The notes under the pieces: generated by a model
What the model saw: the letters and a program-made list of their open reading frames with translations, nothing else
What the model was told of the DNA's origin: nothing
Databases searched by the model: none
In this document: piece after piece, positions 6,526 to 64,000 of the stretch
Layout: every line of letters starts with the position of its first letter
Numbering within the stretch: position 1 is the stretch's first letter
Assembly: GCF_032854445.1 (NCBI RefSeq)
Contig: NC_088300.1
Coordinates: forward strand, 38,096,458-38,160,457
Direction: 5' to 3'
DNA from: Liolophura sinensis
Taxonomy: Eukaryota > Mollusca > Polyplacophora > Chitonida > Chitonidae
Length of the DNA stretch: 64,000 bases
Made by a program: the position numbers and the translations under genes

Positions 6526-7674
6526 GGGGGCCTGGTCTCCACGAGACAACGAGGCACCTGACAGCTCAATCGAGATGCAAAGAGATCAATGTTTGCACCC
6601 CAAATAATGATAAGATTTGCTTACAAATGACAGGTTATAGGTTCCATGCAGTGTCAATATTGTCTCCACTCAAAATCCGCTTGAACATTGTCAACACCTG
6701 AAATGTAAGCAACGGATATCCAAATAATTTCGGTGTAAAAACCAGCCCCACATTTGACTTACGCTTCAGTCACAAAGAGGTTTTGTACTACCCATATTAT
6801 TAATACATGAGACAGCAGTTCATAATCCGAACATGAATGTCCAATTTTCTACAAAATAGTTGTAAGCTCAGAAAGGCCGTTAAAGAGTTCGAGGTAATGT
6901 GTGTGATAAACCAGGAGCCCTCGGTTCTTTGCTCACTATACTAACCACCCCAGCCAGAGTCTGAAGCTTCACTAAGTAGAGTTATGTCTGGTTTCGTCTC
7001 CAAGATTGGTTTCACACTGTAATGTATATTGCCTATCCACCACTTCAGTTCCTCCACAATAATTTCAGACATTTTTCCCACACAGTTACAGTCTCTAGAA
7101 TTCTCTCTGAAGAATCTGTTTCTCTCAATCTCTGATGCCCAATGGTGTAATGGGGCGAGCTGGACTCCAGGCTCTAAGGCAACAATAAGCGCCCACCCAA
7201 AGCGAAGATACTTCCTAAAAATCCTTCCTCAGCGGAACTGAATCATATGCATCTTTTAAGTCTATGGACGCGAAAAGCAATTATGTGAAACCATTTGTAT
7301 GGCAGTTTTCAATGAGTCTGTTTTAAAATGGTGATAATTAATAGTTTTGTTCAAGAACTTTAATTTCAAAATAAGCCTATAACTGACATAATTGTTGAGC
7401 AGAATTTAAAATTCACCCTCTTCAGGTGTTGCTCTTTCAATCACATGTTTTTGCTTAAGTCATTTACTTCATTATCTGTCAGTGAAGTCTCCAACTCTCG
7501 GGACAACAGTTTGGTATGGCATATAGTCAAAGTCTAAAACAATACCCTGTGTGTTATGTAACACCCATTTGTCTGATTTTAGACATTTTAGCTCATTTCA
7601 GGTTTATTTATTACAGTAGCAAGTTAATTATGTCCGCTTACCCGTGGCATAACATCAGTTTTTACTGACTCGAT
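6526..7674. other. Intergenic stretch, nothing recognised
   Basis: No coding signal or array found. It lies between two possible pieces of a DIRS-like element and may itself be decayed element sequence. Confidence 0.35.
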
Positions 7675-7987: not shown

Positions 7988-8092
7988 TTACCAAGCCCGG
8001 CTTCCTCCCACCATAATGCTGGTCGCCGTCGTATAAGTGAAATATTCTTGAGTACGGTGTAAAACACCAATCAAATAAATAAATAAATAATA
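7988..8092 (+). repeat. SINE family A, 3' part
   Basis: CCCGGCTTCCTCCCACCATA, ATAAGTGAAATATTCTTGAG, AAAACACCAATCAAATAAAT and a short AAAT tail; nearly identical to the copies at 18690, 35287 and 62885. Confidence 0.85.
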
Positions 8093-9784: not shown

Positions 9785-9804
9785 TTTTTAATTTACTTTT
9801 GTAG
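9785..9804 (+). promoter_or_regulatory. Predicted 3' splice site just upstream of the tryptophanase ATG
   Basis: A T-rich tract ends in TTTTGTAG at 9804, leaving only 12 bases before the ATG at 9817. This is a good animal acceptor and suggests a non-coding first exon upstream, in 8093-9780, spliced to the single coding exon. The donor cannot be picked with confidence. It is a prediction from consensus only. Confidence 0.55.
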
Positions 9805-9816
9805 CACGACAACGTT

Positions 9817-11235
9817 ATGGAACCCTTCAAAATCAAATCCGTAGAGCCACTTCCCCAGAATACTCGAACTGAACGACTGAAGATATTGAAAGACGCCGGT
9901 TACAATCTCTTTCTAATCCCCGCCAAAGACGTGATCATTGATCTGCTGACCGATTCAGGAACTGGTGCTATGAGTGCCAACCAATGGGCTGCCATGATGC
10001 ACGGAGATGAGAGCTACGCAGGCGCAAGAAGTTTTGAGCACTTCCGAGACACGATTCGTACCATTACGGGCTTTAATTATGTCCTTCCTATTCATCAGGG
10101 TCGGGCGGGTGAGAGAGTGGTCTGTCACGTGATCTGTGATAAGGATCATCTAGTTCTAAGCAATACGATGTTTGACACAACACGAGCTCATGTGGAGAGC
10201 ACAGGCGCAGTAGGCATCGACATGCCGGTGGAATTCACCAAGAATGCTCCATTCAATGGTGACCTGGATATCATCAAGCTGAAGAAATACCTGAAGAAAA
10301 ACCCGAATAAGGTGTCCCTAGTGATACTCACGGTGACAAACAACATGGGCGGTGGTCAGCCGGTGAGTATGCAGAATATCAAAGAGGTTTCTGAAGTCTG
10401 CCGAGAACACAACGTGAAGGTGTATATGGACGCCTGCAGGTTCGCAGAGAACAGCTGGTTCATCAAGACACAGGAATTGGGTTACAGTGAGAAGTCTCCC
10501 ATGGAAATCGCCAAGGAGATGTTCTCTTTCTTCGACGGCTGCATCATGTCTACAAAGAAAGACGGTATATGCAACAGTGGCGGGTTTATCGCTACTAACG
10601 ACCAGCAGATGTACACGCAGTTCTCTCACGAGGTGATCCTCAACGAAGGGTTCGTCACTTACGGCGGACTGACTGGCAGGGACATGGAAGCCGTGGCCGT
10701 CGGTCTAATGGAGGCTCTGGACGAAAATTATCTACGACACAGGATTGAGTCCATCAGGGCGTTTGGTGATATGCTCAAACAAAATTGTGTTTCTGTGTTA
10801 GAACCTGTGGGCGGGCATGCTGTATACCTGGACGCTGCCGAGATCTGTCCTCATATCAAGTTTAAGGAATTTCCAGGATGGGCCCTGAACTGTGTCCTGT
10901 ATTTGGAGGGTGGCATTCGGGCCTGTTCCCTTGGAAACGTTATGAACGGAGTTTTTCCAGACGGCACGGAGCGTCTGTGGACAAAGGAGCTGGTGAGACT
11001 GGCTGTTCCAAGGCGAACATATACCATGTCCCATTTCAAGTACGTGGTAGATGTCATCGGGCGAATTGCAGCCCACAGCCATCTTGTGTCGCCCATGAAG
11101 ATTGTCAAAGCTCCAAACGTTCTTCGTCATTTTACAGCAATTCTCTCTCCTATCGAGGATCATTTGTTCGAGGTGGAAAAGACAGGCACAAAAACTGGAC
11201 TAATCAAGGAACGCCCTTCATACGGGATTAAATGA
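9817..11235 (+). CDS. tnaA: Tryptophanase-like PLP lyase, intronless, bacterial type
   Basis: This 472-residue single-exon reading frame belongs to the beta-eliminating lyase family (tryptophanase / tyrosine phenol-lyase), PLP fold type I. Tryptophanase splits L-tryptophan into indole, pyruvate and ammonia. Visible family residues are: active-site Tyr67 (in GDESYAG), phosphate-binding Gln94-Gly95-Arg96 (HQGR), Asn176, Asp205 and Arg208 (YMDACRF), the Schiff-base lysine Lys248 (MSTKKD) and the carboxylate-binding Arg394 (VRLAVPRR). Overall wording resembles tyrosine phenol-lyase (e.g. FKIKSVE, GGLTGRDMEA). The substrate pocket, however, has Asp120 (FDTT) and His438 (VLRHFTA), as in tryptophanase, and Leu372 where tyrosine phenol-lyase has its phenol-binding Arg. 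Bacterial proteins end soon after the LRHFTA segment; this one runs about 30 residues further. The ATG has G at -3 and +4. It has no operon partners, and animal repeats lie on both sides. Family assignment is certain; indole production is inferred. Confidence 0.93.
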   Translation: MEPFKIKSVEPLPQNTRTERLKILKDAGYNLFLIPAKDVIIDLLTDSGTGAMSANQWAAMMHGDESYAGARSFEHFRDTIRTITGFNYVLPIHQGRAGERVVCHVICDKDHLVLSNTMFDTTRAHVESTGAVGIDMPVEFTKNAPFNGDLDIIKLKKYLKKNPNKVSLVILTVTNNMGGGQPVSMQNIKEVSEVCREHNVKVYMDACRFAENSWFIKTQELGYSEKSPMEIAKEMFSFFDGCIMSTKKDGICNSGGFIATNDQQMYTQFSHEVILNEGFVTYGGLTGRDMEAVAVGLMEALDENYLRHRIESIRAFGDMLKQNCVSVLEPVGGHAVYLDAAEICPHIKFKEFPGWALNCVLYLEGGIRACSLGNVMNGVFPDGTERLWTKELVRLAVPRRTYTMSHFKYVVDVIGRIAAHSHLVSPMKIVKAPNVLRHFTAILSPIEDHLFEVEKTGTKTGLIKERPSYGIK

Positions 11236-11420: not shown

Positions 11421-11426
11421 AATAAA
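11421..11426 (+). promoter_or_regulatory. Candidate poly(A) signal of the tryptophanase gene
   Basis: AATAAA lies 186 bases after the TGA stop. It is the first canonical signal downstream on the coding strand; a further AATAAA lies near 11653. This is compatible with a eukaryotic mRNA end but unproven. Confidence 0.45.
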
Positions 11427-12016
11427 CATAACACTACATATATTATAGACCAAGAAAACGACACAAGATCTTGGAAATGACCTATCCCGCGGCACGAATG
11501 TATAATTAGGAGGGGGGCAAGTCCTGTAATACCATGACTGACAGTTTGCTATAAGTATATAAAACGGTATCGAGTGCAAGGTCAGGCTGAGGTTATGGGA
11601 CAATTGCACACCAGGATCAGTAAAGAGAGTTTTTATAAATGAACCAGTGATAATAAATAAATCTTCTCATTGTGGTTGACAAAACATATCTCTCTGTTGG
11701 TAAAGAATTGAGAATTTATATGCTCAAAAATCCGCAATTTGGCCAAAGGAAATGTGCAGCATTACCAATTCACTCTTACGTACTGGCGCTAGTATTGCCC
11801 GTGAGTGATTTGTCCAGTTTCTGTTTCCGCGTTTTCTGATATGTACTGGTAAAGAGAAACAGTACTAGAGAGACAGTTATTGGTGTCTAGCACACAATGA
11901 GAAGTACTATTCCTTCTCCTTTTACACAGAACAGAAATGACCCTTTCCCGCCTCATAGGCTCTGGTAATTTGCATATTACCCTACACCCTAAGGAAAGTT
12001 TATAGGCTTCACGGTT
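11427..12016. other. Region between the tryptophanase gene and a LINE fragment
   Basis: Holds the presumed 3' end of the tryptophanase transcript (AATAAA at 11421 and near 11653). Nothing else is recognised. Confidence 0.4.
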
Positions 12017-12750
12017 TGATTATGGATGTGAAGCGTACGATTCTGCCTGTGCTTCAGTTAAAGCTAAGCTTGACAGTATTCAATGTTCAGCGCTCTGTAT
12101 TGCAACAGGTACGCTGAAAACAACTCCCTTAAATGTACTTCAACATATATGTAATGAATGGCCTCTTTTTGTTCGAAGACACTTTCAATCGCTGCAATTT
12201 GGAGTGAAGTTGATGGCTTCACATGGGAAGTCAGCAACTGACATTTTCAGACCATCCTATTATGATATTCTGTTTGAAGGTAAAAGCAGAAAAAGAAAGC
12301 CTTTTAGTGTACAAGCGAAATGTATGTACGACACAATGCAGATCGCCGACATTCAAATCTGGTACAATCTTATTTCCGCGTTTCCTCCATGGAAGTTACG
12401 TTTACCGAATATTTCACAAGCGTTACACAGAGAAGTGCAAAAGAGTTTATCTCCCTTTTCTCTAAGGATTATATTGCCAGAACATGGAGCCACTATCTAC
12501 AGGTGTTTACAGATGCCTCAAAGTGCCCGGATACTGACAAAACCGGCTGTGTATTTTGTGTCCCAGAAATTCGTTTAGACTTACGGATGCAGTATCAGTA
12601 TTTACTGCTGAACTGGGATTCTATGTGCGTTGCTTTTTAGCAGCTTTTAAGCCAGCAAGAGCCATTATCTTCACGGATTCGCTAAGTGCGATACAGGCTT
12701 TACAGAATTTTACGCCAAGGAAAGGCTCTCCTATCATAGTAAATAAGTAA
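12017..12750 (+). pseudogene. Non-LTR retrotransposon fragment (RT C-terminus and RNase H)
   Basis: Frames read DYGCEAYDSACASVKAKLDS, then TGTLKTTPLNVLQH and LFVRRHFQSLQF, the region after the RT catalytic domain of I/Jockey-type LINEs. After frameshifts come LQVFTDASKCPDTDKTGCVF, a glimpse of the AEL block, and RAIIFTDSLSAIQALQNF: an RNase H domain with Asp in VFTDAS and FTDS. Several frame breaks show it is inactive. Confidence 0.8.
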
Positions 12751-13868: not shown

Positions 13869-14028
13869 GTAGGTTATCGCCATTCGCATGAGGTGTTTGA
13901 TCTTAGTTTATACGCCTGGTAAGCGGGAACATAATAAACCTCGGGCTGAAGCTCTCGGTCTATTATGTAACCGCTTACCAGGTGTATCACCTCGATCAAA
14001 CACCTCAAGCTCAGTGATAACCCCTACT
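13869..14028. repeat. Foldback (inverted-repeat) element, about 160 bp
   Basis: Two imperfect arms of about 70 bases face each other: GTAGGTTATC...TGAGGTGTTTGATC...GCCTGGTAAGCGG on the left, and the reverse complement (CCGCTTACCAGG, GATCAAACACCTCA, GATAACCCCTAC) on the right, with a short loop near 13948. Likely a MITE-like element. Confidence 0.75.
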
Positions 14029-14193
14029 TAAAGATAAGTTACATGTATTGCCATAGAAATAAAAAATAAACTACAAAAGACAGACCTGTACAAAGGAGAG
14101 GCATTCTAATGTATTTTAATGTTCAGGTTGCAATGAAATCTATCGATTAAACATGTGCTAGCATATCACTGGTCGTATGAGATTTGTTCATTT

Positions 14194-14318
14194 ATTTGAT
14201 TGGTGCTTAACGCCGTTATCAAGAATTTCTCACTGATACGACGGCGGCATTATGGTGGGAGGAAATCGGGCAGAGCACGGGGGAAGCCCAAGACCATCCT
14301 CAGGATGCTGTAGGCCTT
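14194..14318 (-). repeat. SINE family A, 3' part, reverse orientation
   Basis: Starts with TTTATTTGATTGGTGCTTAA, then ACGACGGCGGCATTATGGTG and GGGGGAAGCCCAAGACCATC; the reverse of the 3' half of the full copy at 35287. Confidence 0.85.
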
Positions 14319-15721
14319 TCCACGAACAAAATACCGATCGTGTGAGATGATTTGGAATGTGATACCATCGATGTCCATATTAACTGTTTCTCATACTTAT
14401 ACATTTTATAGGTAAATATAGTGACTGCCCTGACATATTATTATTTCTACCGCGATCAATAGAAGGGAGTTGTCCACACGCAAAATTGTATACATGTATT
14501 TGGTTATAAGTAAATGTTAAAGCATCAAATGAACTGAGTATAACAGGCTTTTACATCAAGGACTGACATCAGGACCACGTTCATTTGTATTGTCTATAGA
14601 AGAGAATAATTATAGTTAGCATACACATTTTGATAATAAAAGACTTCATCATCACCAAAACTACTTACTCATGTGTTGTCAGTATAACGTGTAGAAATGT
14701 TTTGTTTTTCTGAATTTCACTTGTACGAAGGTGGCCAAATTAACTCGCCTTTGTATACAAGGTAAAACATGGGAATTAACGTGACCTGATTGAACAACTG
14801 CCTTGGCTGTCTTTGCCAGAACCCAGTATACGGCTCGACCAGCGAGTGTCATTTGATCACTTGTTGGTTTGTTTGCATCGGTTTTAACATCTTAGTCAAG
14901 AGTATTTTTATTTCACGAAACCCCCGTGTAGCAGACCAGCATCAGTGACAAGATCTTTACAGTGTTAAGGTCTCGTTAGAACACCATGTAGCCAGATCTG
15001 ACCTCAGTTATATAATATACTGACACTGGGTCGACCATTACACGACGTATCGTATAACAGAGTCAAGCCAAGCCTATACAGTACATCGCTCGGACTGCTG
15101 TCAGTCTATATAGGGTTAGGGTTTCTTTAAAAATCCGACTGAATTTTGGTAAAATTTAAAACAAACAAAGGCAAAAAGTGAACAGTGCTAGCTATCGTTC
15201 ACCGCTCGGGTTGCCATCAGAATGACTCCCGCTTATAGGGTTTGCATACTCGTTAGGTTTAGTGTTTTCTTTTTAAAATTAAAAAATAATGTTCGCGTCA
15301 GGGTAGTCTAACGGTAGTCTTACATGAAATCGATGTGGAAGAGTTTATATTTTAGGTCGAAGGCGAAGCCTGAGACCTAAAATTTGTAAACTACAATAGA
15401 CCCGTCCAGAAGTCAAACGTTTCTGTCTCGTGATGGGGGGTATCTAACGACTCAGATAATGAACTCTTGGCACAGAGCCAAGCAGTGCGTTGTATGTAAT
15501 AAAAAGGAATCGAAGAGTAATAGAATACACGATATCGGGTCCACATTAATGAGAAAAGAATAATACAGCAGCATTTGGCTTTTACAGCCAAGTATACAGT
15601 GCTAGCTAGAGTGCATCGTTCGGACTGAGTCCATCTACAGACTAAATATTAGCTCACACAATTTGGTCATTCCGGAAAAGACGATGAAAGGAGAACCCCA
15701 ACGAATTTATTTTCACTCTAA
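14319..15721. other. Intergenic stretch with a hairpin and degenerate repeats
   Basis: A hairpin lies at 15342-15391 (TTTTAGGTC facing GACCTAAAA). Three loosely similar pieces (CAGTGCTAGCTA, ATCGYTCGGACTG) occur near 15080, 15185 and 15597. No gene is recognised. Confidence 0.4.
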
Positions 15722-20996: not shown

Positions 20997-23325
20997 AACC
21001 TGGTTGTGGATCACCTGAAGACCATGTGGTCCTGGTGGTGGTTAACATGGTTGTGGATCACCTGAAGACCATGTGGTCCTGGTGGTGGTTAACATGGTTG
21101 TGGATCACCTGAAGACCATGTGGTCCTGGTGGTAGTTAACATGGTTGTGGATCACCTGAAGACCATGTGGTCCTGGTGGTGGTTAACATGGGTGTCCATC
21201 ACCTGAAGACCATGTAGTCCTGGTGGTGGTTAACATGGTTGTGGATCACCTGAAGACCATGTAGTCCTGGTGGTAGTTAACATGGGTGTCCATCACCTGA
21301 AGACCATGTAGTCCTGGCGGTGGTTAACATGGGTGACCATCACCTGAAGACCATGTAGTCCTGGTGGTGGTAAACATGGTTGTGGATCACCTGAAGACCA
21401 TGTGGTCCTGGTGGTGGTTAACATGGTTGTGGATCACCTGAAGACCATGTAGTCCTGGTGGTAGTTAACATGGTTGTGGATCACCTGAAGACCATGTAGT
21501 CCTGGTGGTGGTTAACATGGGTGTCCATCACCTGAAGACCATGTGGTCCTGGTGGTGGTTAACATGGGTGTCCATCACCTGAAGACCATGTGGTCCTGGT
21601 GGTGGTTAACATGGTTGTGGATCACCTGAAGACCATGTAGTCCTGGTGGTGGTTAACATGGTTGTGGATCACCTGAAGACCATGTAGTCCTGGTGGTAGT
21701 TAACATGGGTGTCCATCACCTGAAGACCATGTGGTCCTGGTGGTGGTTAACATGGGTGTTCATCACCTGAAGACCATGTGGTCCTGGTGGTAGTTAACAT
21801 GGGTGTCGATCACCTGAAGACCATGTAGTCCAGGTGGTGGTTAACATGGGTGACCATCACCTGAAGACCATGTGGTCCTGGTGGTGGTTAACATGGGTGT
21901 CCATCACCTGAAGACCATGTAGTCCTGGTGGTAGTTAACATGGTTGTGGATCACCTGAAGACCATGTAGTCCTGGTGGTGGTTAACATGGTTGTGGATCA
22001 CCTGAAGACCATGTGGTCCTGGTGGTGGTTAACATGGTTGTGGATCACCTGAAGACCATGTGGTCCTGGTGGTGGTTAACATGGTTGTGGATCACCTGAA
22101 GACCATGTGGTCCTGGCGGTGGTTAACATGGTTGTGGATCACCTGAAGACCATGTAGTCCTGGTGGTAGTTAACATGGGTGTCCATCACCTGAAGACCAT
22201 GTAGTCCTGGTGGTGGTTAACATGGTTGTGGATCACCTGAAGACCATGTAGTCCTGGTGGTAGTTAACATGGGTGTCCATCACCTGAAGACCATGTAGTC
22301 CTGGTGGTGGTTAACATGGTTGTGGATCACCTGAAGACCATGTAGTCCTGGTGGTAGTTAACATGGGTGTCCATCACCTGAAGACCATGTGGTCCTGGTG
22401 GTGGTTAACATGGGTGTCCATCACCTGAAGACCATGTGGTCCTGGTGGTGGTTAACATGGTTGTGGATCTCCTGAAGACCATGTAGTCCTGGTGGTAGTT
22501 AACATGGGTGTCCATCACCTGAAGACCATGTAGTCCTGGTGGTAGTTAACATGGTTGTGGATCACCTGAAGACCATGTGGTCCTGGTGGTGGTTAACATG
22601 GGTGTCCATCACCTGAAGACCATGTAGTCCTGGTGGTGGTTAACATGGGTGTCCATCACCTGAAGACCATGTGGTCCTGGTGGTGGTTAACATGGGTGTC
22701 CATCACCTGAAGACCATGTAGTCCTGGTGGTGGTTAACATGGTTGTGGATCACCTGAAGACCATATGGTCCTGGTGGTGGTTAACCTGGTTGTCGATCTC
22801 CTGAAGACCATGTAGTCCTGGTGGTGGTTAACATGGGTGTCCATCACCTGAAGACCATGTGGTCCTGGTGGTGGTTAACATGGGTGTCCATCACCTGAAG
22901 ACCATGTGGTCCTGGTGGTGGTTAACATGGGTGTCCATCACCTGAAGACCATGTAGTCCTGGTGGTAGTTAACATGGTTGTGGATCACCTGAAGACCATG
23001 TGGTCCTGGTGGTGGTTAACATGGGTGTCCATCACCTGAAGACCATGTAGTCCTGGTGGTGGTTAACATGGTTGTGGATCACCTGAAGACCATGTGGTCC
23101 TGGTGGTGGTTAACATGGGTGTCCATCACCTGAAGACCATGTGGTCCTGGTGGTGGTTAACATGGGTGTCCATCACCTGAAGACCATGTAGTCCTGGTGG
23201 TGGTTAACATGGTTGTGGATCACCTGAAGACCATGTGGTCCTGGTGGTGGTTAACATGGGTGACCATCACCTGAAGACCATGTGGTCCTGGCGGTGGTTA
23301 ACATGGGTGTCCATCTCCTGAAGAC
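20997..23325. repeat. 47-bp minisatellite array, about 49 copies
   Basis: Tandem unit of 47 bp, e.g. AACATGGTTGTGGATCACCT followed by GAAGACCATGTGGTCCTGGT and GGTGGTT. Two main unit types differ at GGTTGTGGATC versus GGGTGTCCATC, with further AGTCC/GGTCC and TAGTT/TGGTT variants; the types are mixed along the array. The period is not a multiple of three, so no frame stays open. No conserved flanking gene; unit-to-unit identity is very high. Confidence 0.97.
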
Positions 23326-24070
23326 CATGTACAGTGTGGTCATTGTGGTGGTTGACATCGCTGTTCACCGCCTGGAGACCATGTACAGTGTGGTCATTGT
23401 GATGGTTGACATTGTTGTTCATCGCCTGGAGACCATGTACAGTGTGGTCCTTGTGGTGGTTGACATTGCTGTTCATCGCCTGGAGACCATGTACAGTGTG
23501 GTCATTGTGGTGGTTGACATTGCTGTTCATCGCCTGGAGACCATGTACAGTGTGGTCCTTGTGGTTCACATCGCTGTTCATCACCTGGAGACCATGTACA
23601 GTGTGGTCATTGTGGTGGTTGACATTGCTGTTCATCGCCTGGAGACTATGTACAGTGTGGTCCTTGTGGTTCACATCGCTGTTCATCACCTGGAGACCAT
23701 GTACAGTGTGGTCCTTGTGGTGGTTGACATCGCTGTTCATCGCCTGGAGACAATGTACAGTGTGGTCCTTGTGGTGGTTAACATCGTTGTTCATCGCCTG
23801 GAGACCAAGTAGTCCTGCAGGAGGTAAACATCACTGTTCATCGTTTGGAGACCATGTAATTTTGGAGGTGGTTAACATGGCTATTCATTGCCTGGCGTTC
23901 GTTGCCTTGAGACCAAGTAGTCCTGTAGGTGGTCAACATCACTATTCATCGCCTGTAGACCACACGATGCTAGAGATGGTTAACTGCAGTTCATCACCTG
24001 GAGACCATGTAGGCCTGGAGGTGGTTATCTGTTGTTCATCGCCTGGAGACTATGTAATCCTGCAGGTAAT
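23326..24070. repeat. 54/51-bp minisatellite derived from the 47-bp unit, decaying to the right
   Basis: The unit is the 47-mer with ACAGTGT inserted after GACCATGT, giving 54 bp (some copies 51 bp), e.g. GTTGACATCGCTGTTCATCG then CCTGGAGACCATGTACAGTG. Because 54 and 51 are multiples of three, open frames of about 175 codons appear on both strands. From about 23815 the copies become irregular and lose the insertion. Confidence 0.93.
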
Positions 24071-29300: not shown

Positions 29301-32300
29301 GTTATTTAAATTTTTCTTCTTGCCTTGGGATTTAATTTTCAGTTCAGTTGCATCAGCTGTTCTGGAGAAGAAGATTTTTGTAGGTTTGGCACAAACCCAG
29401 TATGGCCGCCAAGTCACCCGACCAGATATTACCAAATGCCAAAATGCACCACTTCAGATTCTTTCCTAAATCATACTGAAGTTTCAGGAATGTGCCATTT
29501 GTCGTTTCTCATAAAATGTATCACAAAGTGGGCGAGAATAATAATAATAAATATAGTTGCTAAACCAGCCATGCTGGGGTTCAAGCCGATATTTCAGGGC
29601 CTGAGCAGCGTCACTTCCAGTTAACTGAATTCTCTTTATGCATTGATATATAACCAACTTAACTAGAAACGGTATATTTTTCGTAGCCATCCGTATATTG
29701 TATTACACAAGGTAGTGAATACATACACACAGTACATGTATAGCCCTTCATACTCAGTGATATTCAGCTTTAGAGCTGTAACAATTGTTTGTCACGTGAA
29801 CTGCAAAAATGTGGACCTTGTTGAGTACGAAACTAATTCTGTTAGCGTTAAGACTCCGATGACGCTTAGCCAGTGTAAAGAAGAAGTTGAAGTCATTCAG
29901 GTTAGGGTTTGCCCTACATTTACAGTGCTGTACAGCTACGGAGTGAAACCCGACAATGTTCAGCTAGCTGCTTAAATGTTTAGGGACGAGTCCTTGGCTA
30001 AGCATTTACAGATATAAAGTTAGGGCATTGTGGCTCAATAAAAACGCCTGTTTTCAATAAAGCTACATGTGCAGTATGTCTTGTACTTGATTACATGGTA
30101 TGGTTATTCACCACAGCTTCCAATATCCTGCTAATATTTCGTCTCCATACGAGGTACCTCCCGTACGTTCTGAAATTTGCCAAATTGCCATACACTTTAT
30201 AGCCTCTTTTTTTCGATTGCACTGGAAACGACCAATTTCTGCAGCTGTCCATCACTGTATGAAAAAAGGAGAGCCTGCGGTTCTGTGTCTAGGGTAGCCT
30301 TAGCTCAGATTCTAGATGCCAAAGTCGCATTCTAGATGCCTTTTTAGACTAGCAAAAGTATATGTAAGCAGATCATGTGATGTAGCCTATATGTTAAAGA
30401 CTGTGAATGAAGAGGGAATGCAGAAATGATAATACCTTATAGTGCTGAAGTATGTCACATACTGCCACTTTTCTGTTCACAGGAGCTCAACAAAGGTTGA
30501 AGAGGCTGCTGATTTGTACATACGGGCTGCAAATGCTTTTAAGATGGCTAAGAGTGGTCAGGTAGGTCATTCATTGCAAAGTATGGAGATAGGCCGTGCC
30601 AGGTGAAAGAAATTAAAGGAGAAGAAAACATAAACAATGACACTGTAGACTGAAAAGGGCACATTTTTTTCTATTTAGTGGTACCTGCATTCATCATTGC
30701 AATTTTTCCTCGGCATACACATAAAGTCTGAAAACAGCAAAGCTGGCATAAATCGCATCCATAGCAGTTTCATAGCATCCGCCATCTTTAATGCCCTGTA
30801 ATTTATGCTGGGGGTGTGTTGCCTCTCAGCCAGTGAGAGTCGTTAAAACTGCCGGCTTGTTCGTGTAAACTTGGAACCTACGTCTAACATTCCGGTTTCC
30901 GGTTTGTCAAGTGGAAAATGAACTGTACTGTTTGCTACCTTCTGGAAAGAAGAGTTCTACCGGAAATGTACGAACTGCATTTCGGCGGTTTCGGACGGCA
31001 GTTCTCCTCTGAATACAGAAGACTTCAGGACTAGCTCTTGTGCAAAATGAAGTCGCCCAGAGCGGATTTTGGTGCTGATTTATAATTTATCACTTGAGGT
31101 ACATATTAGAATGTTTTTTTATGGCATGCATCTGCGAGGGAATGCATACGCTTTTCATGGTATTGGTTTGATATTTAAATTTCTTGTCCTTTAATTATTG
31201 GGCTGAAGCATAGAGAGTTGTATTTCCCTCTGCTTATAGGCCAGTAGGGAGCTAATCTAGCTAATTTCATTCGAGAGATGGAGGAGGACTATTTTATTGT
31301 ATTATGTTATTATTCATGTTTTGTACTCGGCTCTAAGCGAGCATTTTATTACAATAAAATCAGAATCTAATGCGATTATTAATTTTCTTCATTTTAAAGA
31401 ATTTAACTTTAATACCACTGTTCTAAAAAAGGGATCATGTGTATATACAATAAACACTCAACAGAACTTCAGAAAAGTTTTGAATTCAAAAAGCATAGTA
31501 TATTAAAGAGTTTGACACTTGTGTTCTCTTCTTGTATTCTATTCATCGTTCAGTAAAACTACATGTAGAAGGTTTTCTCAGTAAGATTTCTCTTTTTATT
31601 CACAAATCCTTAACATTTTAAATGTTAAATTCCCTGGTTTTATCCCATGTTGGTTGGACTTGCTGTACAAAGATATGAGTACAATGGAATAGACAGTTTA
31701 GTCCAAGAGCCTGACCTGTCATTGCAGTTGAAATACCACATTATGCCATTCTGGTGAAAATCACAAATCTGTTTTGGTTATGACCTACAATTTTCTGTTA
31801 ATCTGTGTAAAACTGATGTGTGGCATTTGATTTTTAGCTGGTGGCCAGGCATTTGTTGAGGCAGCTAAACTTCAGCTGAAGTTGCAGAGTAAACATCAAG
31901 CTGCCACTCATTATGTGGATGCGGGGAATTGTTACAAAAAGGGAGATCCCAATGGTGAGAATTATTAATGTATTTTATAATGAGGATTTCAAAGAATGTG
32001 TGACCGGCCTGGATAGCACAGTTGGTAGATCGTCCTCTTCGGGAGCGGTAGATCCAGGATCAATCCCAGTTCAAGTCACACCTAAGACTTTAAAGAGGAA
32101 GTTGTAAGTTCCTTGCTTGGTGTTCAGCATGAAGGAGATAGTGCAATGACTGGTTAACCCGTATCAGTATAATGGCTTGGGCGGGACGGCTTACTTGCCT
32201 TCGGTAAGTCGTCTCAGTGAAGCAGCACTACATAAAAGAGCGGTGGAAATCCGTCCTACAACAAGGTGGTACATTACATACACCCTAGGGATTCTTTCGT

Positions 32301-35300: not shown

Positions 35301-38300
35301 CAGTTGGTTAGCGTGCTAGCACAGTGTAATGACCCAGGAGCCTCTCACCAATGTGGTCGCTGTGAGTTCAAGTCCAGCTCATGCTGACTTCCTCTCTGGA
35401 CGTAAGTTGGAAGGTCTGCCAGCAATCTGCAGGTGGTCGTTGGCTTCCCCCGGGCTCTGCCCGGTTTCCCACCCTCCATAATGTTGGCCGCCGTCGTATA
35501 AGTGAAATATTCTTTAGTACGGCATAAAACACCAATCAAATAAACAAATAAATAAAATTATATTGTTAATGTGCCTACTAAGGTTCCTTATGGACTATTG
35601 TTTAACTGTAACCAAATGATGAATTAAGATCAAAGTTCTCATTTCTGTTTAGAATACATCTTTTGTGTTGTATTTATTGTCAGTTCTGCCAATAAATGCC
35701 TGCTGAAGGTGGCTCAGTATGCAGCCCAGCTGGAAATGTATGAGAAGGCAATAGAGATATATGAACAGGTTGGTTCAAGCAAATACAGGGAATAGTTTGT
35801 GTATACATTTTTGTGTGTACAATATAATTTATTTCGTCATTAAATAGATCAACTAAAGTATAGTTTGGCTTTTCAAAAACATGGCAGTCATAATTTTCGG
35901 ATTGTTGATAAATTTGGTGGTAGATTCAGGTAATAAGCAATTTTTTTGGTCATCTCCCTTTCAAGACATGAAAAAGAAATACATTCAGCTAGCATATGGG
36001 TCATATTGTCTACAGACAAAAACCTGTTGAGATTTATCCCTATGCAATAACATTCCAGACTTTAGCAACATCTCAGGATTTAGCTCAGTTTGTCTTTTGT
36101 TTGTTAGAGTCCGTGTAAAGTTTCTGGTACCACAGTGTTTCATATAATATAATGGTGTGTTACTGCTAAGGTTTACAGTGCTTTAACATAGGGAAACAGG
36201 CCATTGTTCCCCACTCCCTCCCCTCTCAAAGATGCTGATGTCTGATGCACACTTACATACAAAACTATGAGTACAGTTCATATTGACGAGTAACACATGT
36301 CACATATGTCACACATGTCACACATTTGTAGAGTTATGGCCAGGGAAGTTATTTGACATTCCCAGAATTGGGATTTTGCTGATTCCAGGTGGCCACATCA
36401 GCCATGGAGAACACCTTACTTAAGTACAGTGCCAAGGACCACTTTTTCCGGGCTGCTTTGTGTCACATGTGTGTTGAGGTGGAGAATGCGGAGATGGTGG
36501 TCACCAAATACGAGGAGATGTTCCCTCAGTTTGCTGACTCCCGGGAATGTAAACTACTCAAGGTAAATCTAAGTTAGAGATCGTCAGCATGATGTTGAAA
36601 AGTTTTTCAAATGCTTCACAGTGTCAAACCCATTGCTTTTCCCATTTAAAAATCTCCTCAACGTGTTCAGATAAAAGGTTGATTGACTGAAATAATGATA
36701 AAAACACCTAAGGAAACAAACCGGCCATGGAGAGTAATGAAATAAAGTAAGATATATATTTTCTGAACATCAGTAAATCTTAAATCATTAGTTATGTGTG
36801 TGAATCTGGACTATCACAATTTTTAATACTTGCCTTTGCTAGTGTATACCTTAAAGTATAAGACACCACCTGGTTATTATCTATTTTCAATGAAATACTA
36901 GTATTTAGAGTATCTTAAACCAAGAATTAAATATTTTTTGGGGATTTCTTTCAACTTAGTAAAAGTTTAGTGAAACTTGATTTTGACAGCACTTTAACAC
37001 GTCGCCATTATCGAGAGAAGAGTGGCGTCATGTTTACTCAAGCTTTTAAACATCAGAGGTGTTTTCGCTTTTATCAGCGAGGCTGTATATCGGCTGGAAA
37101 AAGCTGTGTATGTTGGCAATGAAAGCTCAAGTAACCAACCATGTATAGATAACGTATATGCAATATTCCAAGTTAAGCGCCCCTATTGCATAAAACTCTC
37201 GATCAGACTGTATAAATAAAATAACTGTTGGTACAGTAGGTCTAGTACCATTTATAGGGATTGCTGGCTCCGTATGGCCAGATTCACTGTGGGCACCTCG
37301 GTCATGTCAGTTGCAATGTGCGATAAAATGTACAGCCAGTGTGGAAGGTTTGACCTGTGACCCAGTTATATCTCAAATCATCTGCAGGTGCAGTGGGCAT
37401 TCCTGGTTCAGATCACTTTCTCCAAAAGGGCGACTCTGCTCACTAGGAAATGCTTACAGCATCATTGTAGGCTTATGTTACAATTGCATTCATGCTAAAT
37501 TTTTAAAACATGGAAATAAATCTCAGCCCAACTTGAGCTACTGACATAGACCAACACATTCAACTGTGGCTGATGAGTTATCAACAGTCTTGCTTTTTTA
37601 CGCATGAAATAAATATTTTTGGGACTTACTCTGGGGCAAGATGTATTTTCCTGTGTGGTGTTTGCAGATTCAAATACAACTGTAAGTCATAGAGTAAGGC
37701 GCATGTAGATTTGAGAGCAGGCTAGGAGGCATGCATGGATCATCAGGAGAAGTTGATGTTCTTGTCAAAACTTATCAGCATAGCTGTGCTCAATTACCAT
37801 TAAGTCAGTGTTAGAGAGGCACAGCTGTATGGGTACTTTTTATGGGTCAAGAATTGTATGAACTGTTGTCATTACATATAAAATGCATTGGTGGTAGATT
37901 GTAAGATTAGCTCTCTTGGTGACCCTAGTTATCTGTCGCGGACTTCCGAGAAGGCACATCGGCTTCAACAGCGCACTTGACATAAACATCCCTGGCATGC
38001 AAGAAAGATAAATGGGCCAAATTAAAATTCTTCAGTCATGTCACTTGTGATAAATTTAGAGAAAAAAAAAATTTTTTTTTTAAGAAGACTTAATTTAATT
38101 GTTAAACTGTCGGTATCCCAAAGATGTTTTTTTTTCACTAACTCTGATAAAACTGTATACTAAGCAATAAATGAACAAGGTACCAGGAACATATATTTGT
38201 ATAATTTGAACAGCGTGACTAAAGACATGAGGCCTAATTAGGAGATGAATGCTGTTGTGGTCAAGACAATATTCGACTGTCGGGCCTAATCTTTTAATAC

Positions 38301-39014
38301 ACGTAACTAAATGATAATGAAATGATTATTATTTAGTAGTTCAGTGTTATTAGCTATCACTTCATGGAGTGAATGGCTAAAGGCAACGTCACATCCAACA
38401 CTGTGCAATCAAATTGCAACGCGTTTGATTGGATAAAATTCCCAAGATGTCTATCTCGATTCATACCACCCATTAGAGTAGTATTGTCATTTTTTTTTTC
38501 ATCTCTGATTCGATGAAATCACGTTGGAAAAATAAAGTATGATACTTTTTAGAAAGCTTTAGCATCCTGCTTTTGGGTGAAATATGTTTTAGCCAGGTGC
38601 TGTCTTCTCATTATTATTGTTAGAGATTACACTTTCTGGTTATAACACAGATTTTAGTGCTGATGATTGACAGAAACCAGCGCAGGTGTGGGACCAATGA
38701 CCTCAGGGTCAGCCATCCAAGTGGGAGCAATACATGTCAACTGTCTAGACCCATTTGACAAATTACTTGATATCATAATACTGCTTCTTAAAACCGCATA
38801 GAAGTAACATCTACCAATTTGAGTAAATATGTCATCAATGTTTGTTTGGTCATTTTTTTTTAGACCCTACTCTCAGCCTGTGAAGATCAGAATGTAGAGG
38901 CGTTCACGGATGCAGTGAAGGATTTTGACAGTATATCACGTTTGGACCAGTGGATGACAACTATCCTGCTTAGGATTAAGAAAAACAATTAGTGAAGAGC
39001 CGGATCTGCGATAA
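26213..39014 (+). CDS. NAPA: Alpha-SNAP (NSF attachment protein), nine coding exons, C-terminal frameshift
   Basis: Alpha-SNAP binds SNARE complexes and recruits and activates the NSF ATPase, which takes cis-SNAREs apart after membrane fusion; it acts on the cytosolic face of membranes. Exons: 26213-26304, 30483-30556 (or -30561), 31838 (or 31849)-31954, 33630-33676, 34009-34086, 34971-35026, 35684-35768, 36389-36562, 38864-38992/39014. Conserved blocks in order are EAEKKL with the membrane-binding FLSSLFG loop, [95 protein letters not shown] and DSISRLDQW. As sequenced the frame ends at 38992 after IKKNN (283 residues with the first splice choice). Omitting one A from the A5 run at 38981-38985 would continue the frame as TISEEPDLR to 39014 (290 residues), which is the normal family ending. 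The rest is intact, so an assembly error or a recent allele is more likely than an old pseudogene. Confidence 0.95.
27660..28050 (+). repeat. Intron-1 repeat, copy A
   Basis: Contains AAAATATAGCTGCTAAAG, GTGTCACTTCTGGTTAA, ACATAACCAACTTAATTAGA, TTCGTAGCCATC, then ATGTTCAGCATGCATATAG and TGTGTCACATGACCTGCAAA. The same order of blocks recurs at 29530-29815. Confidence 0.65.
29080..29220 (+). repeat. Intron-1 repeat, partial copy
   Basis: GAATGTCCCCTGTGTTTTTA, AACACAGCTGAAGGATTTTC, ATATAGCCCTTTTCACACA and TCAAGTGACCTGCAAGTAAG match copy A's right half. Confidence 0.65.
29530..29815 (+). repeat. Intron-1 repeat, copy B
   Basis: AAATATAGTTGCTAAACC, CGTCACTTCCAGTTAACTGA, ATAACCAACTTAACTAGAAA, TTCGTAGCCATC and TGTCACGTGAACTGCAAAAA line up in order with copy A. 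Confidence 0.65.
30483..30561 (+). CDS. NAPA: Alpha-SNAP exon 2
   Basis: Encodes [23 protein letters not shown], the first helical hairpin. Acceptor TTCTGTTCACAG. Two donors are possible: GTCAGG after 30556 (phase 1) and the stronger GTAGGT after 30561 (phase 0). The exon end therefore depends on which exon 3 acceptor is used. Confidence 0.88.
31838..31954 (+). CDS. NAPA: Alpha-SNAP exon 3
   Basis: Encodes [39 protein letters not shown] split over conserved TPR-like helices. Acceptor TTGATTTTTAG at 31837 gives the best family match; a second AG at 31848 is also frame-compatible when paired with the stronger exon 2 donor. Donor GTGAGA at 31955. Confidence 0.9.
32003..32360 (+). repeat. SINE family B, full length, in alpha-SNAP intron 3
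   Basis: Starts with a tRNA-like head (GGCCTGGATAGCACAGTTGG, an A-box-like start, and GATCAATCCC/GTTCAAGTC) and ends AAACCCCAAGCACTCACTCA. About 360 bp. The two other long copies are at 5651 and 19285. Confidence 0.85.
32690..32900 (+). repeat. Old interspersed repeat, copy 2, in alpha-SNAP intron 3
   Basis: Partner of 20030-20240: GTTTCAGCACCAAAAGTAAT, then ACATTTATAGGCTTGTAAAA and TTTACCATA. Just upstream, 32533-32612 matches 24735-24812 (ATTCAAGCATATTCTGAGGG, GTGAAGCCCTGCAATTGGCT). Confidence 0.5.
33630..33676 (+). CDS. NAPA: Alpha-SNAP exon 4
   Basis: Encodes [16 protein letters not shown], a highly conserved helix. Acceptor TTTCTTTTTCAG, donor GTGAGG. Phase 1 in, phase 0 out. Confidence 0.94.
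34009..34086 (+). CDS. NAPA: Alpha-SNAP exon 5
   Basis: Encodes [20 protein letters not shown] followed by LVDLEK, nearly identical to vertebrate alpha-SNAP. Acceptor TTTTTCTCTACAG, donor GTACAT. Phase 0 on both sides. Confidence 0.95.
34184..34340 (+). repeat. SINE family A with internal deletion, in alpha-SNAP intron 5
   Basis: Has the head (CCATGGCTCAGTCGGTTAGC, box A-like) joined directly to GGGCTCTGCTCGGTTTCCTC and the 3' tail with AAATAAATAAATAAATA. The box B part and the middle are missing. Confidence 0.88.
34562..34630 (+). repeat. 24-bp tandem repeat, three copies
   Basis: TGTCCATCTGTCCCTCTGTC AATC repeated at 34562, 34586 and 34610; pyrimidine-rich, in alpha-SNAP intron 5, 0.35 kb before exon 6. 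Confidence 0.85.
34971..35026 (+). CDS. NAPA: Alpha-SNAP exon 6
   Basis: Encodes [18 protein letters not shown] plus two bases of the next Ser codon. Acceptor TTTGGCTTTCAG, donor GTTAGT; phase 2 out. Confidence 0.94.
35285..35554 (+). repeat. SINE family A, full length, in alpha-SNAP intron 6
   Basis: Best complete copy (about 270 bp). tRNA-like head with box A (TGGCTCAGTTGG) and box B (GAGTTCAAGTCC), body with GGAAGGTCTGCCAGCAATCT and CCCCGGGCTCTGCCCGGTTT, and a tail of CAAATAAACAAATAAATAAA. It lies between exons 6 and 7 in the sense of the gene. Confidence 0.92.
35684..35768 (+). CDS. NAPA: Alpha-SNAP exon 7
   Basis: Encodes [20 protein letters not shown] then EKAIEIYEQ. Acceptor TTTATTGTCAG, donor GTTGGT; phase 2 in, phase 0 out. 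Confidence 0.94.
36389..36562 (+). CDS. NAPA: Alpha-SNAP exon 8
   Basis: Encodes 58 residues from [20 protein letters not shown] through [14 protein letters not shown]. Acceptor TGATTCCAG, donor GTAAAT. The reading frame runs a few codons into the intron before a stop, so the donor is set by homology to the family. Confidence 0.95.
36563..38863 (+). other. Alpha-SNAP intron 8
   Basis: 2.3-kb intron. No repeat family of this window or RNA gene was recognised. Short T-runs occur at 38060-38080, 38127 and 38492. Confidence 0.45.
38864..39014 (+). CDS. NAPA: Alpha-SNAP exon 9 (last), frameshifted end
   Basis: Encodes [30 protein letters not shown] and TTILLRIKK, the C-terminal helices that contact NSF. 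In frame it then reads NN-stop at 38992. One base out of frame, the DNA reads SEEPDLR-stop ending at 39014, matching the family's acidic -DLR terminus. The change sits at the A5 run 38981-38985. Confidence 0.92.
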
Positions 39015-52900: not shown

Positions 52901-55900
52901 ATCTGACCATAAAATCCCTTTGCTGCAGAACAGCTGTTCGGCTTTTGTTTGAGCCAGTGTAACTGACCTGTTTCTGTTTGAGCCAGTGTAACTGACCTGT
53001 TTCTGTTTGAGCCAGTGTAACTGACCTGTTTCTGTTTTGTGCCAGTGTAACTGACCTGTTTCTGTTTAAGCAGCTCCTGATCGCTATCCTCTCTCCTCCG
53101 TTTCTCCTCGTTCATCTGCTCCTCCAGAGATCTCAGGTGTTCCCTGTACGTATCACTCTCCTGCTGTAGCTGTGCCTCCAGGTCCTGAGGGTTAAAGCCA
53201 GTTATACAACACGTCATTACTGAGATAGAAATGGTACAAGTACATGTGTGCATACCCAATACAGATATACAACATACATCTACAATACAGAGGAAGGGAT
53301 GTGTGCATACCCAATACAGATATACAACATACACCTACAATACAGAGGAAGGGATGTGTGCATACCCAATATAGATATACAACACACATCTACATTACAG
53401 AGGAAGGGATGTGTGCATACCCAATACAGATATACAACACACATCTACATTACAGAGGAAGGGATGTGTGCATACCCAATATAGATATACAATATACATC
53501 TACAATAGAGACGAAGGGATGTGTGCATACCCAATACAGATATACAATATACATCTACAATACAGAGGAAGGGATGTGTGCATACCCAATATAGATATAC
53601 AACATACACCTACAATACAGAGGAAGGGATGTGTGCATACCCAATACAGATATACAATATACATCTACAATACAGAGGAAGGGATGTGTGCATACCCAAT
53701 ATAGATATACAACATACACCTACAATACAGAGGAAGGGATGTGTGCATACCCAATACAGATATACAACATACATCTACAATACAGAGGAAGGGATGTGTG
53801 CATACCCAATATAGATATACAACACACATCCACAATACAGAGAAAGGGATGTGTGCATACCCAATACAGATATACAACACACATCAACAATACAGAGGAA
53901 GGGATGTGTGCATACCCAATACAGATATACAATACACATCTACAATGCAGAGGAAGGGATGTGTGCATACCCAATACAGATATACAACACACATCCACAA
54001 TACAGAGGAAGGGACGTATGCATACCCAATACAGATATACAACACACATCAACAATACAGAGGAAGGGACGTATGCATAGTCAATATAGATATACAACAC
54101 ACATCTACAATACAGAGGAAGGGACGTATGCATACCCAATACAGATATACAACACACATCTACAATACAGAGGAAGGGATGTGTGCATACCCAATAAATG
54201 AAAAATTGTTTTAAAAAATTCTTGAATCTAGATCACCAAGAAAATTTAATGGATTGATTGTATACAAACTTTTCTCCATATCCTTAAATAAGTTTATCAG
54301 TTAAGTTGTGATTAATTGGCTAACAGACAAATAAACAGCAAAAACATACATGAAACCTCCTTTGTGGCGGTTATAAAAGATAATAAAATACTATGTGATC
54401 AAGCAAGATATAATAACAAATCTGGTGCCGACTGGCTAAGTCAGTCTCATGTATACTTGTACGCTAAAGCTTTATGGCGACTGTGTTCCTCCACACCTGG
54501 ATACTCACCTGCAGTTCTATCCTCAGATTCTCCATACTCATCTTGTTCTGCTGAAGCTCCTCCCTAAACATGTCACGCTCCTGTTTGACAGCGTCATACT
54601 CCAGACTGGACACGCCCACTGCCTCACCTGAGGCTCCTGACCCCTCCCTCAGGCTGGCAATCAGGCGTTCCTTAGACTGATGAGAGAGAAACAGACCCAG
54701 TCAAAAAACAATAAACAGTCTGAACTTCAATGTAACCAAACAACCTAAGCAAGTTACAAAGAAAACTTTTAATATTTCCTTATACTGGGGAAATGTCTTG
54801 AGGTCTTAACAAATTATTTACAGGCAAGATTTCAATACTGTATCAGAGACTGATGTTGATACACCATTCAGAAACCAAGTCAGAAATGGTAAAATTTCAT
54901 TATACTTACACAAAATCAGCTGGTTAATACAATTAACATTTAATAAACGGTGTACACAGTACAGGAAATGCTCATAAGTTTCCACTTCTTGGGAGAATGT
55001 ATGATTCTAGTCCTTACCTGGAGAATCCTGGCTGCCTTATCCTTGTAGTCTGCCAGTTCCTGTCGGGCTGCGTCCAGGGAGGCCTTGGTCGTCCTCAGCT
55101 GGGTGTTCATCTCTGATAACTTACCTGACAAGTCACAACACAACAAACAAACATTTCCTGGATTCATTTTCAGGCACCATACTTAATACACTATATTTCA
55201 CCCCATGTGTGGTATGTAACAATGCACTTTTAGAAGCATAAAAATGCCTTACATTGAGACTTTTGATACCAACACTTGAGCTTTTCCAATAAGGAATTTA
55301 TCAATCTTCCAAAAAAAAAATTCTTGATTGACCCTTTAAGGTGGATGAATCGATCAGAATCAAGCAAAACTTCTCTCTCGAAAATGCTAAACATTAGGTG
55401 AAATACTGTATCTGTATCTTGAAAAAGGTATGACGTTAATGTTCAACAATTGACAACCAAACTGAAGACATTGCCTTCACACAGAGTTACTTAGCTACTC
55501 TTTTGTCTGAAATCAATGGGCAGATATTTTGGATACTGAATATCCTAAAGATGTATTTTAGCTACAGGATGAACAAAACCAAAAACACAGAAGATTTCCA
55601 TAAACTTCAACAGATGACATGAATGAGTGATCAGAAGCTCTGAGATTAACACATAGTCTTGACATGTACACTGCATGAGCACCTGAGTATAATAATCGTA
55701 TTACTAACTTCTCTCATCTGATCCTTTCCTCTGAGCAGCTGTCAAGCTCTCCACCATACTCTGTACCTCAGCTTCTAACTTGGCCTGTCTCATGTTGGCT
55801 TCTTCCTGCACAGCACACAAAAGAAAACAGGTGTACTAACAACATATCAAACAACACAAAAGAACTGCACACAGTCTTCTTTCTTCTTTTCTAAAGTGAT

Positions 55901-63189: not shown

Positions 63190-64000
63190 CCCTATGGCCG
63201 TCAATATTGAGATACAAGGCAAATGTAGTGGCCCATTTGACTGGTTCCCTCTCCCTATGTCAATATTGAGACACTAGGCAAGTGTAGTTGCCCATTTGAC
63301 TGGTTCCCTCTCCCTATGGCAATCAATATTGTAACAATAGGCAAGTGTAGTCGCACATTTGACTGGATCCCTCTCCCTATGGCAATCAATATTGTAACAA
63401 TAGGCAAGTGTAGTCGCACATTTGACTGGATCCCTCTCCCTATGGCAATCAATATTGTAACACTAGGCAAGTGTAGTTGCCCATTTGACTGGATCCCTCT
63501 CCCTATGGCAATCAATATTGTAACACTAGGCAAGTGTAGTGGCCCATTTGACTGGTTCCCTCTCCCAATGGCAATCAATATTGTAACAGTAGGCAAATGT
63601 AGTGGCCCATTTGACTGGTTCTCTCTCCCTATGGCAATCAATATTGTAACAGTAGGCAAGTGTAGTGGCCCATTTGACTGGATCCCTCTCCCTATGGCAA
63701 TCAGTATTGTAACACTAGGCAAGTGTAGTCCCCATTTGACTGGTTCCCTCTCCCTATGGCAGTCAATGTTGAGATACAAGGCAAGTGTAGTGGCCCATTT
63801 GACTGGTTCCCTCTCCCTATGGCAATCAGTATTGTAACAGTAGGCAAGTGTAGTTGCCCATTTGACTGGTTCCCTCTCCCTATGGCAATCAGTATTGTAA
63901 CGCTAGGCAAGTGTAGTTGCCCATTTGACTGGTTCCCTCTCCCTGTGGCAATCAATATTGTAACAGTAGGCAAGTGTAGTTGCCCATTTGACTGGTTCCC
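63190..64000. repeat. 63-bp minisatellite array, about 13 copies, cut by the window end
   Basis: Unit TTGACTGGTTCCCTCTCCCT, ATGGCAATCAATATTGTAAC, AGTAGGCAAGTGTAGTTGCC plus CAT; mostly 63 bp, with shorter copies at the left. 63 is a multiple of three, so both strands show repeats of about 21 codons with no stop over 170 codons. The array continues beyond 64000. Confidence 0.95.

Follow-up and report, generated by a model that had tools for sequence, protein, structure and literature searches.

Animals are generally thought to leave the production of indole, a bacterial signal and the precursor of many marine indoles, to their microbes. How, then, does a tryptophanase-family gene come to lie in the genome of the chiton Liolophura sinensis, and what would its product do there? 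We addressed these questions in a stretch of 64,000 nucleotides (contig NC_088300.1, positions 38,096,458 to 38,160,457; hereafter the window, with positions counted from its first letter), in the remaining chiton genome and among prokaryotic genomes. If the window tryptophanase works, the animal could make indole by itself.

Family assignment and chromosomal setting

The coding sequence of the window gene is intact (Table 1), and the chance of an equally long stop-free frame is about 10^-10.9 by a naive estimate from base composition. Its predicted protein matches the Pfam family PF01212 (Beta_elim_lyase) at 3.1e-66, with 224 bits (cut-off 27), and the NCBIfam model NF009709 ("tryptophanase") at 7.4e-178, with 592 bits (cut-off 285). 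Scoring above the curated cut-offs of both models, it belongs to the tryptophanase subfamily, in agreement with a preliminary description of this DNA that had recognized a complete intronless gene of this family. The narrower models gave lower scores. The protein reached 412.9 bits for the bacterial TnaA equivalog TIGR02617 (cut-off 825.8) and 479.9 bits for the equivalog NF053783 (cut-off 750), and because it misses both cut-offs we did not file it under the bacterial TnaA equivalogs. The tyrosine phenol-lyase model TIGR02618 gave 478.2 bits, also below its cut-off (720.7). Since the scores lie well under the TnaA and phenol-lyase equivalog cut-offs alike, the substrate preference of the enzyme rests on few positions, which are considered below.

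In the alignment, the first residues of the window protein coincide with the starts of the bacterial proteins and no leader is added, and for this reason we read the enzyme as cytosolic. Ahead of the ATG, the run ending TTTTGTAG might act as a splice acceptor, which would imply a 5' non-coding exon; this is suggestive only.

Table 1. Features in the window and in the host sequence preceding it.
Feature	Position	Strand	Remarks
Second full-length tryptophanase copy	G000:C6:38090769-38092166 (L003:4312-5709)	same as window gene	465 codons, intronless
SINE-like dispersed element arm, upstream of tryptophanase gene	8024..8088	.	inverted-repeat search
Possible 3' splice site, pyrimidine-rich run ending TTTTGTAG	9790..9804	+	by eye; 12 bases before ATG
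Tryptophanase-family CDS (window gene)	9817..11235	+	472 aa, ATG start, TGA stop, no intron within ORF
Poly(A) signal candidate AATAAA, first after stop	11421..11426	+	weak evidence in AT-rich DNA
Further poly(A) signal candidates after stop of window gene	11652 and 11656		
SINE-like element, downstream of tryptophanase gene	14182..14330	+	inverted relative to upstream element
SNAP-family exons (PF14938; NAPA in the preliminary description)	31840-31953, 35682-35786, 36386-36562, 38855-38986	+	
GOLGA5 exon piece	54467-54700	-	Golgin_A5 domain PF09787

The window gene lies on an 82.5-Mb scaffold of the chiton assembly, and no N occurs across the window or the preceding 19 kb. The arms of the SINE-like elements on either side of it (8024-8088 and 14182-14246) are inverted and 85% complementary. 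A repeat search with the downstream element, in which 40 of 5,094 candidates were scored, lists 41 matches in the host genome, the element itself included, at 79-100% identity. SNAP-family and GOLGA5 exons stand on the same molecule; among 10 window ORFs searched against Pfam, the Golgin_A5 piece alone scored above the cut-off. The placement between animal SINEs and beside NAPA and GOLGA5, previously read from the letters, was thereby upheld. Overall, physical residence of the tryptophanase gene in the host genome is supported. Bacterial contamination or a chimeric contig would have in its favor that the tryptophanase family is mainly prokaryotic. We rejected it as very unlikely in view of the gap-free 82.5-Mb scaffold, the host repeats on both sides, the SNAP-family and GOLGA5 exons alongside, a second, divergent tryptophanase copy nearby and the modest identity to bacteria, the best full-length relative found reaching 54% and a partial one (L048) 55% over residues 1-178. 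Scaffolds flagged as possible contamination were taken out in the Liolophura japonica genome paper (PMC11068029), in whose main text the word tryptophan is absent.

The preliminary description had also pointed to G+C content above that of the surroundings. The difference itself was confirmed (48.8% in the gene versus 39.1% in the whole window), but host coding sequence comes close, with 46.0% in the SNAP pieces and 47.7% in the GOLGA5 region, sampled as four pieces of which one has a Pfam match over the cut-off. At third positions, G+C amounts to 56.4% in the window gene and 54.0% in the neighboring copy, and to 52.8% and 40.7% in the host samples. Most of the excess is ordinary for coding sequence in this DNA, third positions being somewhat high, and raised G+C was set aside as a sign of transfer, although the third positions of both copies are higher than those of the host pieces.

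Open frames that by eye resemble retroelement remnants, at 6941-7228 (reverse strand) and 12006-12578 (forward strand), gave no Pfam hit. An imperfect palindrome occupies positions 13905-13992 (arms of 43 bases, 79% complementary, 2-base gap), and minisatellite-like stretches at 23264-23830, 53224-54214 and 63241-63902 give long repetitive frames.

Active sites of the two copies

The second copy starts 15.5 kb upstream of the window gene (start to start) and 5.7 kb before the window start. It scores 497 bits for NF009709, over the cut-off of 285, and the two chiton proteins are 50-51% identical. Whole-genome searches, which can miss weak matches, returned these two full-length tryptophanase matches and no third. 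Most of the residue roles assigned in what follows are those we presume from general knowledge of the family; a few are taken from passages of published papers.

All cofactor and catalytic residues examined in an alignment with E. coli TnaA are present in the window copy. Lys248 is the predicted PLP lysine and aligns with E. coli Lys270. Tyr67, Asp120, Asn176 and Asp205 align with Tyr74, Asp137, Asn198 and Asp227, and Arg208, Arg394 and His438 with Arg230, Arg419 and His463; equivalents of Gln101-Gly102-Arg103 and of Phe136 are found as well. Set against E. coli TnaA and Proteus vulgaris tryptophan indole-lyase (solved structures 2oqx, 1ax4), the window copy has the eight aligned E. coli residues just named (Lys270, Tyr74, Asp137, Asn198, Asp227, Arg230, Arg419 and His463); it differs in overall identity (35-40%), in its TIGR02617 score below the cut-off and in having Leu for Ile396 and Cys for Val394. 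Residues and invariant columns were counted over 58 prokaryote rows (without L066-L069), and the window copy keeps 44/44 of the columns invariant among them.

The neighboring copy breaks 9 of these 44 columns, cofactor contacts among them, and keeps 35. When prokaryotes were left out one at a time, the highest numbers of breaks were 6/50 (E. coli) and 5/49 (L046). In E. coli numbering, the rebuilt cofactor cradle of this sister has Ala for Gly102, Leu for Phe136, His for Asn198 and Glu for Asp227, each at a position conserved in 58/58 prokaryotes, and Glu at 396, where 48/58 prokaryotes have Ile. In this fold the Asp is the residue in contact with the PLP pyridine nitrogen (PMC3870968). Lys270, Tyr74, Arg230, Arg419, Asp137 and His463 are retained. 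The duplicate has kept its lysine, but several of its cofactor-contacting residues have been exchanged. Because 9/44 invariant columns are broken, including cofactor contacts, its function is probably altered, tryptophanase activity having been changed or lost. The intact ORF and the 35 columns kept suggest that it is under some constraint.

Five positions separate tryptophanase (Asp137, Phe304, Val394, Ile396, His463) from tyrosine phenol-lyase (Thr, Met, Met, Arg, Phe; PMC5805759). The letters of the window copy at these positions are Asp, Phe, Cys, Leu and His, that is, three tryptophanase letters and no phenol-lyase letter, with a match to neither consensus at 394 and 396. Cys394 occurs in 7/58 prokaryotes and Leu396 in 3/58. 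Thr137, Met394, Arg396 and Phe463 are common to all five rows that make up the phenol-lyase branch (Met304 to two of the five), and these rows lie far from the window copy in the 60-row tree described below.

Modelled by AlphaFold on a 27-row alignment, the window protein has a mean pLDDT of 87.5, with low confidence at residues 1-8 and 455-472; the 18-residue C-terminal tail lies below 50. Similarly, the model of the neighboring copy has a mean pLDDT of 86.8, and its helices and strands are much like those of the window copy. Whether the comparison is made by sequence or by fold, the solved structures nearest to the window protein belong to tyrosine phenol-lyases and tryptophanases; the top hits have 35-44% identity and, in the fold search, a TM score of up to 0.93. 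Phenol-lyases occupy first place in the phmmer search and the first 13 places in the Foldseek search, and the product of the window gene could accordingly be a beta-eliminating lyase with a different preference (tyrosine phenol-lyase, or cysteine or S-alkylcysteine lyase) that yields little indole. The scores under the tryptophanase equivalog cut-offs and the departure of Cys394 and Leu396 from the tryptophanase consensus lean the same way. We nevertheless consider this unlikely. The tyrosine phenol-lyases compared (Citrobacter 2ycp/6dvx; Pantoea L054) have fold and cofactor residues in common with the window copy, at 43-44% identity, but none of the five separating letters appears in it, Asp137, Phe304 and His463 are as in tryptophanase, and the phenol-lyase branch is uniform in its own letters and distant in the tree. 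We predict a functional tryptophan indole-lyase.

Bacterial relatives and ancestry of the pair

Scanning prokaryotes by pattern, with each species represented by one genome, yielded 46 relatives, the full-length ones at no more than 51% identity; the same kind of match was found 16 times in viral contigs, none of them a relative. We then considered groups of genomes around individual records. In the phylum group of the Melioribacter record, 113/296 genomes match at E <= 0.001, weak matches included, with a best identity of 54% among the matches listed, and in the class to which the best-matching genome belongs 30/244 match at E <= 1e-150, again with a best identity of 54%. Around a planctomycete record, 15/294 genomes match at E <= 1e-140 (best 52%), and around the Hippea record 3/25 match, two over the full length at 51% and one as a weak local match. 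No genome out of 398 around the Rhodospirillaceae record matches at E <= 1e-140, a threshold at which the central genome itself, matching at 1.5e-130, is not counted. The full-length maximum of 54% comes from the searches of 296, 25, 294 and 244 genomes, or 859 draws, of which the 296- and 244-genome searches overlap and the 294- and 244-genome searches list strong matches only.

The closest likeness is to the broad PRK13238/NF009709 bacterial tryptophanases (L057-L062 and L069, then Melioribacteraceae and Ignavibacteria), which are of the same length and up to 54% identical, and which have the 44 invariant columns and the tryptophanase letters at 137, 304 and 463 in common with the window copy. 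Unlike them, the window copy lies on an animal chromosome, carries an 18-residue C-terminal tail of low pLDDT and has a diverged duplicate nearby. Many genomes of the Melioribacter group have two family members of their own, with identities to the chiton protein of about 50% and about 40%, sometimes side by side (for example G240:C67 and G067:C1). The tryptophanase gene on plasmid pSALBX2 of Streptomyces sp. CL7 (L052) has as neighbors an annotated tryptophan dimethylallyltransferase and a methyltransferase.

The first tree, of 60 rows (2 chiton, 58 prokaryote), recovered the two chiton copies as monophyletic (ultrafast bootstrap 100, SH-aLRT 99), within a clade of 8 (100/97) that also takes in six bacterial rows from the Melioribacter phylum group. 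A second tree of both copies, with four rows added (L066-L069) and nine removed (the long branches L045, L046, L053, L052, L040 and L037, and also L063, L008 and L013), returned the pair at 100/100 within a clade of 9 at 100/93. When the neighbor was omitted along with the same six long branches, the window copy grouped with the same six bacterial rows at 99/98, and when the window copy was omitted instead, likewise without the long branches, the neighbor grouped with them at 99/94. Because each copy alone reaches the same six bacterial rows, long-branch attraction between the two is spoken against. Two independent transfers are likewise not favored, the copies being sisters when together and joining the same rows when alone. 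L048 (partial) and L064 (the same contig match as L042) were dropped from all trees, and L065, a weak local match, was never used.

Of the checks that the preliminary description had called for, the protein search against bacteria and a phylogeny of prokaryote and chiton rows nest the pair among bacteria, at no more than 54% full-length identity. They support a bacterial ancestry of the chiton pair, followed by a duplication, both apparently old. In the 60-row tree the stem of the pair measures 0.77, the window tip 0.64 and the neighbor tip 1.15; reckoned in changes per site, about 0.6 and 1.1 since the duplication and about 0.7 on the shared stem, the acquisition would be old. The six bacterial rows had been picked from a single phylum group for scoring best against the window protein, a sampling that biases any donor label, and the donor should not be described more narrowly than as bacterial, nearest to the Melioribacter phylum group among those sampled.

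Whether the gene was transferred into this lineage in particular is a separate matter. A listing of tnaA in D. melanogaster may reflect a confusion of names with tonalli (tna), a gene of the fly. This listing is found in Table 1 of a 2021 survey, which also gives tnaA in two octopuses, eight anthozoans, the hemichordate Saccoglossus, Limulus, the springtail Folsomia and Priapulus (PMC8537960). Tryptophanase was reported in a Dicathais transcriptome, and Lottia, Octopus and Crassostrea were reported to yield no KEGG match (PMC4962025); for Octopus, this conflicts with the survey. A Nematostella gene named tryptophanase is among the side-specific genes in regeneration (PMC5015328). Going by these earlier listings, the presence of a tryptophanase in an animal is nothing new as such (PMC8537960), and they weaken the preliminary view that it would be out of the ordinary (PMC8537960, PMC5015328). 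The listed animal genes, likened to the chiton copies by their listing, are of bacterial type too, and neither a tandem pair nor a remodelled copy is mentioned in the survey's passages on them (PMC8537960).

An old eukaryotic or early-animal tryptophanase, once bacterial, may accordingly have descended vertically and been lost in most lineages. We hold this to be evenly balanced with a transfer into molluscs or chitons; it concerns origin, leaves the function of the enzyme the same and is compatible with our main explanation. The listings in cnidarians, molluscs, a hemichordate, arthropods and a priapulid (PMC8537960) are consistent with vertical descent, as are the long stem and the deep duplication in our trees. 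Against it, the survey finds too scant a record in higher eukaryotes to show where tnaA came from (PMC8537960), KEGG matches were missing in three molluscs (PMC4962025) and both chiton coding sequences are intronless. The preliminary description had itself named an old eukaryotic clade with wide animal distribution as the outcome that would overturn its reading, and with the listings in PMC8537960 and PMC5015328 that outcome is live. Of the proposed horizontal transfer, the bacterial ancestry and the chromosomal residence stand; a special transfer into this animal is unproven, because a wide animal distribution is reported (PMC8537960) and our trees cover the chiton copies and prokaryotes.

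Our literature searches found nothing joining tryptophanase with a chiton, and nothing joining tyrosine phenol-lyase, horizontal gene transfer and a mollusc. The part that we did not find described in the literature searched, several of these searches being broad, is a pair of copies with one rewritten active site.

Proposed roles of the two copies

On the evidence of family models, residues and trees, we consider it likely that the window gene is a chiton nuclear gene for a cytosolic PLP-dependent tryptophan indole-lyase of bacterial ancestry. It would be expressed as an animal mRNA, and its product would assemble like bacterial tryptophanase. PLP would be bound on Lys248 and tryptophan held via Arg394, with Tyr67, Asp120 and His438 serving to protonate and release the indole ring. 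From what is known of the family, the products would be indole, pyruvate and ammonia. A supply of indole for halogenated indoles or pigments, as suggested in the preliminary description, would be a speculative extension of this reading. Tryptophan dioxygenase exons were found elsewhere in the chiton genome, and the window enzyme would for that reason be an extra route, an additional outlet for tryptophan beside that of the dioxygenase. A silent or decaying gene seems to us improbable. The relaxed active site of the sister copy would fit such a fate for the window gene, but two ORFs have stayed intact while about half of their residues came to differ, and the window copy keeps every invariant column.

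Since animal tryptophanases are already listed elsewhere, the main surprise of the expected indole-lyase locus is the rewritten sister copy. More tentatively, the neighbors may form a module evolved in the animal, in which a canonical tryptophanase is accompanied by a sister rebuilt for a new catalysis or acting as a regulatory pseudo-enzyme partner in mixed oligomers; we regard this as a possibility of rather low probability. The mollusc, in which a canonical copy stands near a remodelled one, offers a sharp test case, and poly(A) RNA of five tissues (digestive gland, foot, gill, gonad and heart) is listed in the Liolophura japonica genome paper (PMC11068029).

The flanks of the two genes were also compared. 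Over 1.5 kb upstream of each, no significant similarity was detected (best E 0.28). Just after the second copy lies a 74-bp tandem repeat of 4.3 copies (L003:5754-6071), the unit of which resembles, by eye, the final codons of that copy.
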